NCBI RefSeq assembly: GCF_001019615.1
Contig: NZ_JNBQ01000022.1
Location: 1 to 59,211, forward strand
DNA length: 59,211 nucleotides
Reading direction: 5' to 3'
Source: Cellulosimicrobium funkei
GTDB lineage: Bacteria; Actinomycetota; Actinomycetes; Actinomycetales; Cellulomonadaceae
The number at the start of each line of letters is the position of its first letter. The stretch's first letter is position 1. The position numbers and the translations under genes are program-made. The notes under the pieces are model-generated. The model was not told the origin of the DNA, did no database searches, and worked only from the letters and a program-made list of their open reading frames with translations. This document shows positions 22,780 through 48,420 of the stretch, in pieces.

Positions 22780-24102
<1,323 letters not shown>

Positions 24103-24151: not shown

Positions 24152-24235
24152 GTCGAGCACGACACCCCACGCCGTCGAGCACGACATGACGGTCGCTATC
24201 ACGCTGATGGCGACCGCCATGTCGTGTTCGGCGCC
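24152..24235 (+). repeat. 84-bp intergenic hairpin element, copy 1
   Basis: Two direct GTCGAGCACGAC blocks (24152-24163 and 24174-24185) precede a long imperfect hairpin: the CGAGCACGACATG arm pairs with CATGTCGTGTTCG, then GGTCGC with GCGACC, then TATCA with TGATG, closing on a 3-base loop. It aligns without gaps over all 84 bases to the reverse complement of 33701-33784 (about 61 identities by eye). It lies between the convergent purD and protease genes. Confidence 0.8.
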
Positions 24236-24259
24236 CTGGGGTAGTTCAGGGGCGACGTG

Positions 24260-25855
24260 TCAGGCTCGGTGCCACTTCTGGGCCGCGGTGCCGTTGCACG
24301 TCCAGATCTGGAGCTGCGTGCCGTCGGTGCTGTTGCTGCCCGGCACGTCGACGCACTTGTTCGCCAGCACGGACACGAGGTCGCCCGCGCCGCTCAGCAC
24401 GAACTTCTGGGCGGGGTTGCCGCTGCAGTTCGCGAGCTGCACGGCGGTCCCGTCGGCCGTCGCTGCCCACGCCACGTCCATGCACTTGCCGCCCGCGCGG
24501 ACCGTGCCGTCGGCCTCGAACGTCCAGCGCTGCGCGCTCGTCCCGTTGCACGTCCACAGCTGCAGGCGCTTGCCGTCGCTGAAGTCCGAGCTCGGCACGT
24601 CGATGCACTTGCCCGCGAGCCCGACCAGCGCGATGCCCGACCCGCCGCCCGTCGTGACGAGCGACAGCCCGTACGCCGAGAGGATCGGGTTCACGGGCTG
24701 GTAGATGAACTTGCCCCCGTTGGAGCAGTCGTTGATGCGACCCGAGGTGACGCCCTGCGCCTGGTTGCCCGAGATCACGGAGCCGCCGGAGTCGCCGCCC
24801 TCGGCGCACGCGCTGCCGCGCACGAGGCCGGGGATGTCGCCGTTGCCGTAGTTCACGGTGATGTTCTTCTGCTCGATGACGCCGCAGCGCCAGCCCGTCG
24901 TCGCGCCGGACCGGCAGACCGACGCGCCGACCGGCGCCTCGGCGGACCCGGCGACGTCGACGGTGCCGCCCGCGTAGTTGTTCACGCGCGGGACGGGGGA
25001 GAACCCGGCGTCGACGCGCACCCAGGCGTAGTCGTGGCCGGGGAACGACGCCGCCTGGACCGTGCCCATGCGCGCCCAGCTCGCCGTGAGGACCTCCTTG
25101 CCCGCCGCGCCGCAGTGCCCGGCCGTGACGAAGCCGCCCTGCACGGCGAAGCCGATCGAGCACGCCGAGCCCGACGACGCGCCGGGGTCCCGGGTGATGT
25201 ACCGGTCGCCGCCGCGCACGTCGGCCGTGAGCTCGTACGGCGCGTCGACGACCTCGGTCCGGACGGCGGCCGCGTCGACCCCCGACGCCGCGACGAACGC
25301 CTCCGCCGCGGCCGGGTCGAGCGACTCGACGACGACCTCGTTGGTCGTCACGTCGACGTACCAGGCCTGGACGGCGTCGGGCGTCGACGCCTCGTCCAGC
25401 CCGGCGGCGACGCCGTCGAGGTCCGCGAGGCTGCGCTCGACGACGACGGCCTCGGCTCCGGCCGCCTCGACCGCCGGCACGGCGGCCGGGTCGGTGACGG
25501 CGACGACGGGCGTCGCGGCGTCGGCGTCGACCCACGTGCCGGCGTACGCCGCGCCCAGGTCGTCGCTCAGCGCCTGCTCGACGGCGCCGGTCGCGGCGTC
25601 GAGCGCGAGCCGGTCGGCGACGCCGACGGCGTCGAGGCCCAGGTCGCGCTCGAGCGCGCGGAGCTGGCCGGGGGACAGGTCGTCGGGTCCGGGGACGGGG
25701 CCGGTGAGCAGCGCCGGGGTCTCGGTCCCGATGGTCGACGGTGCGGCGAAGGGCGCGCTCGCGTTCGCCGACGTCGCGAGCCCGATGCTCGCGGCGATCA
25801 TGCCGATTCCGGTTGCTAGCGCTGTCAGGCGATGGTGCATCGTGCCGTGGTGCAT
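24260..25855 (-). CDS. Secreted alpha-lytic-type serine protease with C-terminal ricin-B lectin domain
   Basis: 531-aa pre-pro-enzyme. Signal peptide about 1-32; long acidic pro-region with an alpha-lytic-protease pro-domain (about 60-215); S1E catalytic domain (about 217-400) with TAGHC (His247), Asp275 in PGHDYAWV and GGDSGGS (Ser356), plus cysteines 232/248, 314/324 and 350/377 placed for disulfides. A ricin-B/CBM13 domain follows (410-531) with three QxW-type repeats. The layout matches Rarobacter yeast-lytic protease I, whose lectin binds mannan. The start is fixed by GAGGAGG (25861-25867) 5 bases before the ATG. A CebR-like box lies downstream of the likely -10 box. Confidence 0.92.
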   Translation of the reverse strand: MHHGTMHHRLTALATGIGMIAASIGLATSANASAPFAAPSTIGTETPALLTGPVPGPDDLSPGQLRALERDLGLDAVGVADRLALDAATGAVEQALSDDLGAAYAGTWVDADAATPVVAVTDPAAVPAVEAAGAEAVVVERSLADLDGVAAGLDEASTPDAVQAWYVDVTTNEVVVESLDPAAAEAFVAASGVDAAAVRTEVVDAPYELTADVRGGDRYITRDPGASSGSACSIGFAVQGGFVTAGHCGAAGKEVLTASWARMGTVQAASFPGHDYAWVRVDAGFSPVPRVNNYAGGTVDVAGSAEAPVGASVCRSGATTGWRCGVIEQKNITVNYGNGDIPGLVRGSACAEGGDSGGSVISGNQAQGVTSGRINDCSNGGKFIYQPVNPILSAYGLSLVTTGGGSGIALVGLAGKCIDVPSSDFSDGKRLQLWTCNGTSAQRWTFEADGTVRAGGKCMDVAWAATADGTAVQLANCSGNPAQKFVLSGAGDLVSVLANKCVDVPGSNSTDGTQLQIWTCNGTAAQKWHRA

Positions 25856-27099: not shown

Positions 27100-27444
27100 T
27101 CAGGCGGTCCGGGCGGCGACCGGGCGCACGTAGGTGTGCCCGCTCGGCGCGGTCCACCGGACCGAGCCGTCGGCGAGCAGGGCGGGACGCCAGCCGTCGC
27201 GCGCGCGGACGACCCGATGGTGCCGGCAGAGCGCGACGAGGTTGTCGGCCTCCTGCGCGGCGGCCGCGGCGTCGTCGTCCGCGCCCGGTCGTGGGGCCAC
27301 GAGGTGGTCGAGGTCGCAACGGAACGCCGGGACGTGGCAGCCGGGGAACACGCAGGTCTCGTCGCGCGTGAGGACGCGCGCGACGGTCTGCGGCGACGGC
27401 CGTGCCCTGCCGCGCTCCGCGGCGGGGGCGAGCGGTGCTGCCAT
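27100..27444 (-). CDS. HNH endonuclease, C-terminal part of a DUF222/13E12-type protein
   Basis: 114-aa protein made almost entirely of an HNH domain: TCVFPGCHVPAFRCDLDHLVAPRP, then ADNLVALCRHHRVV and a Trp/Pro-rich end. In actinobacteria this domain normally ends a 400-500-aa DUF222-HNH protein; here the DUF222 part is absent. ATG 27442-27444 has a strong GGGAGG ribosome binding site and lies downstream of a -10 box (TAGAGT, 27549-27554) overlapping an SOS box. The gene therefore looks complete at its 5' end and may have arisen by internal deletion. Activity is uncertain. Confidence 0.75.
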   Translation of the reverse strand: MAAPLAPAAERGRARPSPQTVARVLTRDETCVFPGCHVPAFRCDLDHLVAPRPGADDDAAAAAQEADNLVALCRHHRVVRARDGWRPALLADGSVRWTAPSGHTYVRPVAARTA

Positions 27445-27533
27445 GCGACCTCCCTGCGTCGTCGAGCCCTGGTTCGTGCGAAGGGCGGGGAAGGGGCAGG
27501 ACCCCGCCCTCGCACCGTGCCCGAGCGTGCGTC

Positions 27534-27549
27534 TCGAACACGTGTTCGA
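27534..27549 (-). promoter_or_regulatory. LexA (SOS) box of the HNH gene
   Basis: TCGAACACGTGTTCGA is a perfect 16-bp palindrome fitting the actinobacterial LexA consensus TCGAAC-N4-GTTCGA. It abuts a minus-strand -10 box TAGAGT (27549-27554), so LexA binding would block transcription of the HNH gene until DNA damage. Confidence 0.8.
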
Positions 27550-27602
27550 CTCTAGCGGCACCCTCTGACACGCGTCGAGGGCTGGCGCGATAGATCGTCG
27601 TC

Positions 27603-33193: not shown

Positions 33194-33682
33194 TCAGGCG
33201 CGGTGGCGCAGGACCGTCGGGCGACCCTCGTCGTCCCACTGCGAGAAGCGGGCGTCGATCAGCGGGCCGACGAGGTCGTACGTCTCCCACGTGTCGGGCA
33301 CGCGGTACACGTCCTCGGGCTCGCCGTCGCCCGGGCTCACCGCGTCGACGTAGTCCTCCAGGTAGAGGCCGCCGTCGTCCTCGTCCTCCTCGTCGCCCGT
33401 GTAGTACGCGCTCGCGAACGCCGCGGCGACGTCGTCGAGGTCCTCGTCGACGAGCCTGCCGTCGCACGCGGCGAGCACGAACGCGCCGGGCGTCGTCCTC
33501 CGCTCGCGCAGCGCGGCGAGGTCGTCAGCGGCGTCCTCGGCGATCTGCTCGGAGACGTGCCCGCCGAGCACCGCCCACGCGAGGAACACGCCGATGTGCG
33601 TCGCGCCCGCCGCGGGCCCCGCCTCGGGTGGATAGCCCAGGCCCTCGGAGTGCCAGGACGCGTCGTCGAGCTTCGTCGTCAT
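33194..33682 (-). CDS. Conserved hypothetical protein (KLDDASWH...ATHIGVFLAW type)
   Basis: 162-aa soluble acidic protein. Its start, TKLDDASWHSEGLGYPPEAGPAAGATHIGVFLAWAV, resembles a family of bacterial hypothetical proteins often linked to polymorphic-toxin or immunity neighbourhoods; that link is recalled, not shown here. The centre is very acidic (TGDEEDEDDGG). ATG 33680-33682 lies 6 bases after a -10 box TAGCGT (33689-33694, minus), so it is leaderless. No catalytic motif is seen. Confidence 0.8.
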   Translation of the reverse strand: MTTKLDDASWHSEGLGYPPEAGPAAGATHIGVFLAWAVLGGHVSEQIAEDAADDLAALRERRTTPGAFVLAACDGRLVDEDLDDVAAAFASAYYTGDEEDEDDGGLYLEDYVDAVSPGDGEPEDVYRVPDTWETYDLVGPLIDARFSQWDDEGRPTVLRHRA

Positions 33683-33700
33683 GCGGCGACGCTACCCCCT

Positions 33701-33784
33701 CCCGCCGAACACGACATGAGGGTCGATATCCCGTGGATCACGACCCCCATGTCGTGTTCGACCGCGTGCCAGGTCGTGTTCGGC
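33701..33784 (-). repeat. 84-bp intergenic hairpin element, copy 2
   Basis: The reverse complement aligns base for base with 24152-24235. It has GCCGAACACGAC and GTCGAACACGAC blocks 22 bases apart, then an outer perfect 13-bp arm CGAACACGACATG/CATGTCGTGTTCG, inner GGTCG/CGACC and ATCC/GGAT stems and a 3-base loop. Inner pairs differ from copy 1 but still pair. It begins 7 bases behind the -10 box of the gene at 33194-33682. Confidence 0.8.
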
Positions 33785-33822: not shown

Positions 33823-34887
33823 TCAGGACGTCCGGGCGCCGGAGAGGGCGTCCGCGAGGAGCTCGAGCGTGCGGGCGCGGCCCGGCGTGGAGTCCAGCGC
33901 CTCGTCCGCGCGCGACGCGGCGACGGGGACGACCATCACCTCGTCGACCCCGTGGCGCTCGGCGAGCCGGCGGACCTCGGCCGCGGCGGCGTCGGGCGTC
34001 CCGACGGCCCAGCGCCGGAGGCTGTCCTCGACCATCTGCCCGGCCGTGCCGTCGAGGGGTGCCGCCTGGGCCTCCTCCACGGTCTCCAGCGCGGTGAGCG
34101 CCTGACCGGTGCGCAGCCGCGCCATCATGCGCGCCTGCGGGAGCGCGCGGGCCCGGGCCTCGTCGTCGGTCTCGGCGACGACGGCGTTGAGCGTGAGGAA
34201 CGTGCGGGGCTCGGGGAACGCCTCGCTCGGGCGGTAGCCCTCGCGGTACAGCGCGAGGATCTCGTCGATGCCCTGGCTGGAGAAGTGGTTCGCGAACACG
34301 TACGGGAGCCCGAGCTCGGCCGCGAGGCGCGCGGAGTAGTCGCTCGACCCGAGGAGCCAGACGGTCGGTGCGGCGTCGGCGGCGGGCGTGGCGTGCACGT
34401 CGTAGACCTGGCCGCTCGTGAGGCGCAGCGTCGCGCCCTGCGGGCTCATGAGCGCGAGGATGTCGGTCACGTGCTGGGGGAACCGGTCGACGTCGGCCGT
34501 GGGGCCGGTGATCCGCAGGAGCTGCGTGACGACGGGGTCGGAGCCCGGCGCACGGCCGATCCCCAGGTCGACGCGCCCCGGGGCGATCGCCTCGAGCGCC
34601 GCGAACTGCTCCGCGACGACGAGCGGCGCGTGGTTCGGGAGCATGACCCCGCCCGAGCCGACCCGGATGCGGTCGGTCACCGACGCCGCGGCGGCGATCA
34701 TCACGGGCGGCGTCGACGCCGCGACCGCGGGCATGTTGTGGTGCTCGGCGAACCAGTACCGCTCGTACCCGAGCCGGTCCGCGAGGCGGACCAGGTCGAG
34801 CGACGCCCGCACCGCCTGGGTGCTGGACTGGCCCGAGCGGACGGGCACGAGGTCGAGGACGGACAGGCGGGGGGTCTGGGTGCTCAC
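33823..34887 (-). CDS. LLM-class flavin-dependent oxidoreductase (luciferase-like)
   Basis: 354-aa bacterial-luciferase-like protein of the group with LSVLDLVPVRSGQSS, YERYWFAEHHNMPAVAASTPPVMIAA, VGSGGVMLPNHAPLVVAEQF, GRVDLGIGRAPGSDP and LLGSSDYSARLAAELGLPYVFANHF. The AEHH motif and the GSSDYSA motif are characteristic. FMN is the likely cofactor; substrate unknown. The start is GTG 34885-34887, giving the standard N-terminus. Confidence 0.9.
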   Translation of the reverse strand: MSTQTPRLSVLDLVPVRSGQSSTQAVRASLDLVRLADRLGYERYWFAEHHNMPAVAASTPPVMIAAAASVTDRIRVGSGGVMLPNHAPLVVAEQFAALEAIAPGRVDLGIGRAPGSDPVVTQLLRITGPTADVDRFPQHVTDILALMSPQGATLRLTSGQVYDVHATPAADAAPTVWLLGSSDYSARLAAELGLPYVFANHFSSQGIDEILALYREGYRPSEAFPEPRTFLTLNAVVAETDDEARARALPQARMMARLRTGQALTALETVEEAQAAPLDGTAGQMVEDSLRRWAVGTPDAAAAEVRRLAERHGVDEVMVVPVAASRADEALDSTPGRARTLELLADALSGARTS

Positions 34888-45509: not shown

Positions 45510-45610
45510 CCTCCGACGCTACGAAGGGTCGGCGCAGCCGGTCCACGCCTTTGCCGAGCGCCACGTGTCGACGATGCACCCGCTGCCCGCTGCCCGCTGA
45601 GCACGTGGTC

Positions 45611-45640
45611 GTGGCCCGTCCCGACGCCGGGACGGGCCAC
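45611..45640 (-). terminator. Terminator after metZ
   Basis: Perfect 13-bp inverted repeat GTGGCCCGTCCCG (45611-45623) with its complement (45628-45640) and a 4-base loop, 25 bases beyond the metZ stop on the minus strand. Confidence 0.75.
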
Positions 45641-45664
45641 CACCGCATGCTCGGCGGGAAAGGG

Positions 45665-46915
45665 TCAGGCGTTCAGCGCCTGCTCCACGTCCTCGATGAC
45701 GTCGAGCGGGTCCTCGAGGCCCACCGACAGGCGCACGGTCGTCTCCGCGATCCCGACGGCGGCGCGGCCCTCGGGGCCGAGCTTGCGGTGCGTCGTGGTG
45801 GCCGGGTGGGTGACGAGCGACTTGGCGTCTCCGAGGTTGTTCGAGATGTCGACGACCTGGAGCGCGTCGAGGAACGTGAACGCGCGCTTCTTCGCCGTCT
45901 CGGGGTCGGTGCCCTCGGGGACGGCGAGGTCGAACGTCACGACCGTCCCGCCGCCGCTCTGCTGCGACTGCGCGAGCTCGCGCTGCGGGTGCGACGCGAG
46001 GAACGGGTACCGCACACGGCCGATGCCGGGGAGCTGCTCGAGCGCCTCGGCGACCTGCGCCGCGGCGGCGTTCTGCGCGGCGACGCGCACGGGCAGCGTC
46101 TCGAGGCCCTTGAGCAGGACCCACGCGTTGAACGCCGAGAGCGAAGGCCCCGTGTTGCGGATGAACGTCTGCACGGGCCCGGTGACGTACTCCTCGGTCC
46201 CGAGGATCGCGCCGCCGAGCACGCGACCCTGGCCGTCGATGTGCTTGGTCGCCGAGTACACGACGACGTCCGCCCCGAGCTCGAGCGGCTTCTGGAGCAG
46301 CGGCGTCGCGAACACGTTGTCGAGGACGACGACCGCGCCCGCGGCGTGCGCGAGCTCGCTCACGCGCCGCGCGTCGACGATGTCCTGCATGGGGTTGGAC
46401 GGCGTCTCGAAGAACACGACGTCCGCGGGCGTCGAGAGCGCCTCCTCCCACTGGGAGAGCACGTGCCCGTCGACGTAGTCCGTCCGCACGCCCCACTTGG
46501 CGAAGATCTCGTCGAAGATGACGATGCTCGACCCGAACAGCGCGCGCGCCGCGACGATCCGCGACCCGGAACCCACGAGGGCGGCGAGCGACGTGAACAC
46601 CGCGGACATGCCCGACGCCGTCGCGTAGCACGCCTCGGCGCCCTCGAGCAGGCGCAGGCGCTCCTCGAACGCGTGCACGGTCGGGTTGCCGTAGCGCGAG
46701 TAGACGAACCGGTCGAGCTCGCCCTTGAACGCGGCCTCGGCGTCGGCGGCGCGGTCGTACGTGTAGCCCTGCGTGAGGAACAGCGCCTCGGACGTCTCCT
46801 GGAACTCCGTGCGGTGGTGCCCGCCGCGCACGGCGAGCGTCGCGGGGCGAGCGCTCGCGGGCAAGGGCTTGCGGCCGGAGCCGCCGGGCACGCTCCCGGG
46901 CTGCGCGGCGCTCAC
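45665..46915 (-). CDS. metZ: O-succinylhomoserine sulfhydrylase
   Basis: 416-aa PLP enzyme of the Cys/Met-metabolism family, adding sulfide to an activated homoserine to make homocysteine. PLP-lysine Lys224 in SATKHIDGQG; the following GRVLGGAILG is typical of MetZ rather than MetB or MetY. Other motifs: YSRYGNPT, ASGMSA, FFETPSNP, VVVLDNVFATP and VRLSVGLED. GTG 46913-46915 overlaps the rhodanese stop by 4 bp, so the two are translated together. Confidence 0.93.
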   Translation of the reverse strand: MSAAQPGSVPGGSGRKPLPASARPATLAVRGGHHRTEFQETSEALFLTQGYTYDRAADAEAAFKGELDRFVYSRYGNPTVHAFEERLRLLEGAEACYATASGMSAVFTSLAALVGSGSRIVAARALFGSSIVIFDEIFAKWGVRTDYVDGHVLSQWEEALSTPADVVFFETPSNPMQDIVDARRVSELAHAAGAVVVLDNVFATPLLQKPLELGADVVVYSATKHIDGQGRVLGGAILGTEEYVTGPVQTFIRNTGPSLSAFNAWVLLKGLETLPVRVAAQNAAAAQVAEALEQLPGIGRVRYPFLASHPQRELAQSQQSGGGTVVTFDLAVPEGTDPETAKKRAFTFLDALQVVDISNNLGDAKSLVTHPATTTHRKLGPEGRAAVGIAETTVRLSVGLEDPLDVIEDVEQALNA

Positions 46916-48295: not shown

Positions 48296-48420
48296 GGTCA
48301 TGAGTGCCAGCGTGAAACCCCGGTTTGCTGGCCGGCAACCCTCCTCTCGCGGCGGGGTGCCCCGGGTGACGACCAGGCCGTACGCCGACCGGCGCGCGGC
48401 AAGCGCGGGGATCACCGTCC
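48296..48420 (+). ncRNA. SAM-IV riboswitch
   Basis: GGTCATGAGTGCCAGCG, then a CCCCGGTTTGCTGG stem, CCGGCAACCCTCC, GGCGGGGTGCCCCGGGTGAC and GACCAGG follow the actinobacterial SAM-IV riboswitch in order and spacing. The outer stem is GGTC (48296-48299) with GACC (48371-48374). The downstream CGACCGGCGCGCGGCAAGCG segment (about 48385-48405) fits the pseudoknot part. It should lower expression of the downstream gene when S-adenosylmethionine is plentiful. Confidence 0.88.

Follow-up and report, generated by a model that had tools for sequence, protein, structure and literature searches.

A REP-like family of gene-end hairpins, seemingly inherited in place, in Cellulosimicrobium and two or more further genera of the same family

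The window, i.e., the whole stretch of DNA analyzed here, comprises 59,211 nucleotides of Cellulosimicrobium funkei and contains two copies of an intergenic hairpin element. Bit scores refer to two covariance models, R1, built from 13 copies with exact arms, and R2, a broader model built from 71 copies; both copies of the window are rows of R1 and R2, so their scores are those of training members. The features concerned are the following:

22780–24102, + strand: purD, ending before copy 1 (Pfam GARS N, A and C domains)
24152–24163, + strand: side word of copy 1, repeating the arm word in direct orientation 22 bases ahead of the hairpin arm, found at the same alignment place in 71 copies
24174–24232, + strand: 59-base hairpin of copy 1 (94.7 bits with R1, 91.8 with R2)
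24260–25801 (start approximate), − strand: alpha-lytic-type protease with ricin-B lectin domain, convergent with purD (PF02983, PF00652)
33194–33682, − strand: DUF7832 gene, starting 21 bases after copy 2 (PF25191)
33704–33762, − strand: 59-base hairpin of copy 2, of opposite polarity in the window (91.8 bits with R1, 91.1 with R2)
33773–33784, − strand: side word of copy 2, a repeat of the arm word
33823–34887, − strand: luciferase-like monooxygenase gene, ending before copy 2 (PF00296)
45596–45655, − strand: possible degenerate third copy, or unrelated gene-end hairpin (38.6 bits with R1, 36.5 with R2)

The first-pass annotation had described an 84-bp element behind purD with a gapless reverse-complement partner, and this was confirmed: copy 1 (24152–24235, +) and copy 2 (33701–33784, −) share 61 of 84 positions in an ungapped alignment. 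Apart from this alignment, high ungapped matching of copy 1 within the window was limited to palindromic cross-matches of the two copies (61 identities at 33682–33765 on the + strand, 59 at 24171–24254 on the − strand), and the next best match reached 46 of 84. The repeated block and the long hairpin were recovered as well. The 12-base block of copy 1 starts at 24152 and recurs 22 bases on, at 24174, and the outer block of copy 2 is GCCGAACACGAC, not GTCGARCACGAC. On the strand of the element, the hairpins have energies of −54.2 kcal/mol (copy 1) and −53.6 kcal/mol (copy 2), and both fold far better than dinucleotide shuffles (z = −8.8 and −6.9, respectively). The position between convergent genes, also proposed for the element, holds for copy 1 (purD on the + strand, protease on the − strand); it fails for copy 2, whose neighbors are co-directional and both run on the minus strand (one stopping at 33823, the other starting at 33682). 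The third, far weaker match of R1 in the window spans 45589–45685. Elsewhere in the window, an open frame at 27100–27561 (− strand) resembles by eye the C-terminal part of a DUF222/HNH protein, with no Pfam match in the two frames tested.

A pattern with exact arms found 13 copies in the genome of the strain (26 strand matches), and its reversed control none. With R1, a genome-wide search gave at least 121 both-strand matches at E up to 10 among the best 150 candidates; when the fetched stretches were searched locally, 126 both-strand matches reached an E of 0.001 or less, and these make up at least 67 distinct places. In the complete genome of a relative, G011, R1 gave 146 both-strand matches corresponding to at least 76 distinct places; the weakest are doubtful in both genomes. 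As the model searches scored only the best 150, 107 (39-genome set) or 18 (221-genome set) candidates per genome, all these copy numbers are lower bounds. In the 39-genome set, R1 matched 19 genomes, namely all 17 of Cellulosimicrobium together with G018 and G032 (best 107 candidates each). At the level of the family, R2 matched at E up to 1e-5 in at least 61 of 221 genomes and at least 11 of 25 genera; matches were strong and numerous in 17 of 17 Cellulosimicrobium genomes, seven genomes of genus g34 and one of genus g35, and weaker in the rest (best 18 candidates each). The copies inspected in g34 and g35 align with the model, side word included.

Several other identities were considered for the element. 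When the copy 1 region was compared with Rfam, the best hit was a microRNA model at 21.6 bits, for a gathering threshold of 100, and a known RNA family was therefore rejected. Over the whole window, Rfam recognized only a SAM-IV riboswitch (48296–48411, + strand, 113.2 bits), located elsewhere than the element. Phage or plasmid cargo was also rejected: the exact pattern was absent from viral contigs, and a distant blastn of copy 1 against phage and plasmid records gave no match. Some of the 97 stretches that matched the pattern lie outside the genus, in Rhodococcus, Streptomyces and others; by eye, these look like unrelated single hairpins. In G018, which belongs to another genus, a hairpin with CGAGAACGTCATCAGGTGCCGCTACC arms (L060, 1501–1592) is possibly a distant relative of the family. 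G019, of another genus than Cellulosimicrobium, carries two identical 48-base palindromes with GAATCGTTGG arms, one behind purD (L309) and one at G019:C7:78214; this pattern has only two copies in G019, and the hairpin behind purD was not retained as a second genus family. Searches of the open-access literature brought up no description of the Cellulosimicrobium hairpin family.

The element is usually a 59-base hairpin of 28 pairs with the word CGARCACGAC in both arms, and a third copy of this word, outside the hairpin, precedes the 5′ arm by 22 bases. Paired cells make up 88.8% of the 71-copy alignment against 79.2% after shuffling, double changes occur at 16 of 28 pairs (11.8 in shuffled and 7 to 14 in slid alignments), and double-change cells amount to 192 against 77 in shuffles. 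Inner arm bases outside the word also covary. Between species, we compared the own genome (G000) with G011 over 40 of 61 orthologous pairs, those of equal polarity and equal length that are in register. Pairing is kept, imperfectly: a standard pair is maintained in both species at 64 double and 48 single differences, 88 single differences leave a standard pair in one species only, and another 18 double and 15 single differences involve non-pairs. The hairpin overall is no better conserved than its surroundings, with divergences of 13 and 11% in the outer arms, 16 and 14% in the inner arms, 17% in the 5′ flank and 10% in the 3′ flank; certain single positions are. In the same 40 pairs, the side word shows 35 differences in 400 positions against 88 in 400 for the adjacent ten-base spacer (P = 2e-7), and 15 in 320 when two variable positions, chosen after looking, are set aside.

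Genes were called with a home-made codon-usage caller seeded with five genes of the window. The 67 places of the own genome comprise 25 convergent and 29 co-directional gaps, 3 divergent gaps, 8 overlaps with predicted genes and 2 contig edges; for the 76 places of G011, the figures are 32, 27, 8, 9 (in predicted genes) and 0. Four of the eight own "intragenic" copies are weak (27–29 bits) and probably false, and one strong copy (L212), like its counterpart in G011, is located within a predicted gene. Among co-directional copies, polarity runs with transcription in 12 and against it in 17 cases in the own genome, and in 11 and 16 cases in G011; the polarity of the element is unrelated to transcription. 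A stop codon lies within 75 bases in 53 of 62 own places and 62 of 74 in G011, at a median of about 19 bases, i.e., the stable hairpin shortly behind the stop that is a feature of intrinsic terminators. This count omits shorter matches (4 of the 67 own places, 2 of the 76 in G011) and one own place without a stop in its stretch. For random intergenic positions in a G011 block, 34% are within 75 bases of a stop and the median is 166. In an unselected 400-kb block of G011, among gaps of 40 bases or more, a copy is present in 9 of 27 convergent, 5 of 131 co-directional and 2 of 54 divergent gaps (convergent 9/27 versus other gaps 7/185, P = 1.5e-5). Of the convergent gaps devoid of the element, 44% and 53% in two G011 blocks contain another strong hairpin (excess beyond −10 kcal/mol); the figures are 16–19% for co-directional gaps and 4% and 12% for divergent ones, as would be expected if a hairpin were generally needed between convergent genes. 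Thus, the covariance-model search proposed in the first-pass annotation revealed many intergenic copies whose pairing covaries, both in the own genome and in related ones. The outcomes that it had named against its own proposal, i.e., only two unconserved copies or copies without intergenic preference, were checked and neither was found.

Copies are mostly found at the same sites in different species. For 51 of the 67 own copies, both flanks and the element occur together in G011, in stretches that had been picked for holding copies; of the remainder, 11 match by one flank only, 4 by none, and 1, a weak intragenic match, has both flanks without the element. Polarity is the same in 55 of 61 comparable pairs. 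A fairer test is given by the contiguous, unselected 400-kb block of G011, where 17 of 17 strong copies with both flanks, from the own and other genomes and representing 12 sites, were occupied; these are the 19 two-flank copies minus one duplicate (same site, same genome) and one weak intragenic match, and two copies whose flanks mapped more than 4 kb apart were left out. In that first block the element was near every one of 13 one-flank matches; in the second block, the weak own match L284 is opposite a different hairpin, and no element lies near 7 one-flank matches (77–92% identity). Homologues of purD were found in 37 of 39 genomes. Within the genus, 11 of 16 genomes carry an element at the purD site (G000, G002, G004, G005, G006, G008, G009, G011, G013, G015, G016), and G003, G007, G010, G012 and G014 do not. 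Thus, copies are gained or lost over longer times, though they were not seen moving.

The mobile or MITE-like nature suggested at first is not supported by these data, given the 17 of 17 occupied sites and the transposase search. The latter covered the Y1 family: PF01797 had no match in 19 genomes (the own genome, 12 others of the genus and 6 of the order), while a control set was positive in 5 of 14. Inverted repeats, a MITE feature, are present, and as no clean empty site was available, a target-site duplication was not readable. The elements form a REP-like family that extends from Cellulosimicrobium to no fewer than two further genera and seems to be vertically inherited in place.

The distribution along the chromosome is uneven. 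In G011, whose dnaA lies at 2.825 Mb, the interval from 0.9 to 2.5 Mb (1.6 Mb, a third of the chromosome, chosen after looking) holds 2 of 71 places against about 23 expected (P = 3e-10, best 150 candidates scored). The contiguous 400-kb block at 1.2–1.6 Mb contains no match above 39 bits, and the block at 2.9–3.3 Mb contains 17 copies of 65 bits or more. In the 1.2–1.6 Mb block, another gene-end word was found, CGAGGTAGAGCC, which occurs both inverted and as direct repeats spaced by about 21 bases; 39 ten-base words were counted here and 14 in the block at 2.9–3.3 Mb. This is a second gene-end word family of the genus, unrelated to the CGARCACGAC family. With up to one mismatch, CGAGGTAGAGCCNTGGTC occurs 128 times in G000, 201 times in G011 and 109 times in G008, and its reversed control 0 times. 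Repeat sites of CGAGGTAGAGCCNTGGTC at gene ends were observed at L343 and L351 (G011:C1 near 1.313 and 1.465 Mb) and in L362 (1716–1779 and 2383–2465); its direct copies are about 21 bases apart and reach a run of eight at one site, and it also occurs inverted. In G008, the listed places of the second word are scattered over many parts of the chromosome, so a strict chromosome division by word is not supported. A third small hairpin family, with the word CGAGATCGACCC, was seen as four copies in L347, L350 (two places) and L352 (G011:C1 at about 1.397, 1.441, 1.442 and 1.489 Mb). It might be imagined that several unrelated word families, all built alike (a word of 10–12 bases that recurs after about two helical turns and once more in inverted form), mark the gene ends of the genus and are partly split by chromosome region since CGARCACGAC is nearly missing where CGAGGTAGAGCC is frequent, each read by its own putative DNA-binding protein that sets gene or domain boundaries; we regard this as rather a long shot.

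Among known systems, the REP and REPIN sequences associated with RAYT transposases (the GTAG-tagged superfamily) are also numerous short extragenic palindromes, in which inverted word pairs form hairpins, often near the ends of coding regions (Ref. PMC3116915, PMC3733652). High-copy extragenic palindromes are equally what the Cellulosimicrobium family presents, and the REP-like label proposed in the first-pass annotation is appropriate for its look and placement, with many intergenic copies, covarying pairs and gene-end position. It does not extend to the transposase or to the tag. PF01797 is absent from the 19 genomes, 13 of them of Cellulosimicrobium, and a RAYT-driven REP was rejected in the absence of any Y1 family match. 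No constant unpaired GTAG motif was found in the 71-copy alignment; CGTC is found in 30 of the 71 copies, at the base of the 5′ arm in columns that are mostly paired, and is missing from the other 41. The 28-pair stem, the extra direct word 22 bases before the hairpin and the in-place conservation are further differences from REP and REPIN sequences. The family thus looks like REP/REPIN yet fails two tested features, the transposase and the constant tag. The CGTC-tagged REPs resemble it in being palindromic repeats without a dedicated transposase (PMC3733652), whereas its own CGTC is neither constant nor mostly unpaired. Five phyla are given for the CGTC repeats, Actinobacteria not included, and the word "actinobacteria" is absent from the main text of that survey (PMC3733652). 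Integron attC sites were considered and dropped in view of their general anatomy. DNA uptake sequences of Neisseria and Haemophilus double as terminators, a short word being used twice in inverted order behind genes, as in our family. They are dispersed as hundreds to thousands of single words, and a DNA uptake word was rejected as the 14-base word TCGARCACGACATG has only 16 copies in the 4.66 Mb of the own genome.

The likeliest role of the element is that of a two-way transcript end whose word is read by a putative protein. More broadly, a gene-end element that ends or protects transcripts, together with a word-reading protein, has in our estimation about an even chance of being the right explanation. 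The long hairpin would form the end of transcripts coming from either side, either as a two-way end devoid of U-tract or as a 3′-end stabilizer. The word CGARCACGAC would be kept because a sequence-specific protein reads it, and the family would have spread in an ancestor of these genera and from then on been mostly inherited in place. The gene-end position, the strong stem and the preference for convergent gaps fit a two-way transcript end. Structured ends without U-tract also count in its favor: in Streptomyces clavuligerus, they are a large class (353 of 1427 mapped transcript ends), and bidirectional ends have longer and stronger stems (PMC8269248). Such U-tract-less (I-shaped), bidirectional terminators of high-GC actinobacteria share with our element a strong stem without U-tract, at transcript ends in their case (PMC8269248) and behind stop codons here; they need no common sequence, whereas the Cellulosimicrobium copies have both their sequence and their side word in common, each partly conserved. 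That a plain terminator could do without a common sequence and without a side word argues against that reading. The specialised terminator suggested by the first-pass annotation may be right, as it agrees with the placement, but a U-tract is missing: the ten bases after either arm contain 0.8 to 1.0 T against a background of 1.25, and a pattern scan found no U-tract at copy 1. RNA-level selection was examined through wobble tolerance, leaving out two polarity-marking pairs, and the mismatch counts gave no support, as G-T versus A-C mismatches do not follow transcription (same-direction 12 versus 15, opposite 17 versus 26, convergent 22 versus 47). In view of the missing U-tract and of this result, the function is one that we infer. 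Other observations also count against a transcript end: the polarity of the element is unrelated to transcription, and the hairpin overall is no better conserved than its surroundings. In 10 of 56 co-directional placements of the two pooled genomes, copy 2 and its ortholog included, the next predicted start is less than 30 bases from the hairpin, which leaves little room for a promoter behind a terminator; and part of the chromosome manages without the family.

The wobble result and the regional distribution would also be understandable if the element acted at the DNA level, a putative chromosomal protein binding the three words at gene ends chosen because supercoils meet there and promoters are avoided. 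BIMEs of enterobacteria, which bind protein, are the model for such a site. The conservation of word positions outside the hairpin as well, and a polarity that is fixed whatever the direction of transcription, point the same way; however, inner arm bases that do not belong to the word covary, which would be superfluous for binding to double-stranded DNA, and we consider a DNA-level binding site a possible but less probable explanation. It is unlikely, in our view, that the copies are functionless relics of a past non-autonomous transposition (REPIN- or MITE-like), left where insertion was least harmful. Relics would account for a sequence common to unlinked sites, for an inverted-repeat anatomy like that of REPINs (PMC3116915), for a purD site gained or lost within the genus and for a hairpin conserved as a whole no better than its flanks. 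They would not account for position-specific conservation between orthologous copies, for a near-constant length (exactly 59 bases at 116 of the 143 places of the two genomes together, by model boundaries) or for the occupation of 17 of 17 sites, and the Y1 transposase family is without match in the 19 genomes. Finally, the symmetry of the arms could be kept by template switching at replicating palindromes instead of selection for pairing. Bacterial quasi-palindromes are known to be perfected by mutation, which would yield double changes like those counted; nevertheless, a T-G pair persists near the stem base in 50 of 71 copies and the side word is conserved though it lies outside the hairpin, which makes this explanation very unlikely.

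REP-like repeats are usually discussed in connection with the RAYT transposase as their possible means of spread, and the main text of the survey of these repeats names no actinobacteria (PMC3733652). A large gene-end family in a high-GC actinobacterial genus, with no match to the RAYT transposase family, with the same sites occupied across species and with conservation of single positions, lends itself well to the question of whether repeats of this kind are selfish relics or do useful work. Also, the family would supply candidate two-way transcript ends in Cellulosimicrobium.
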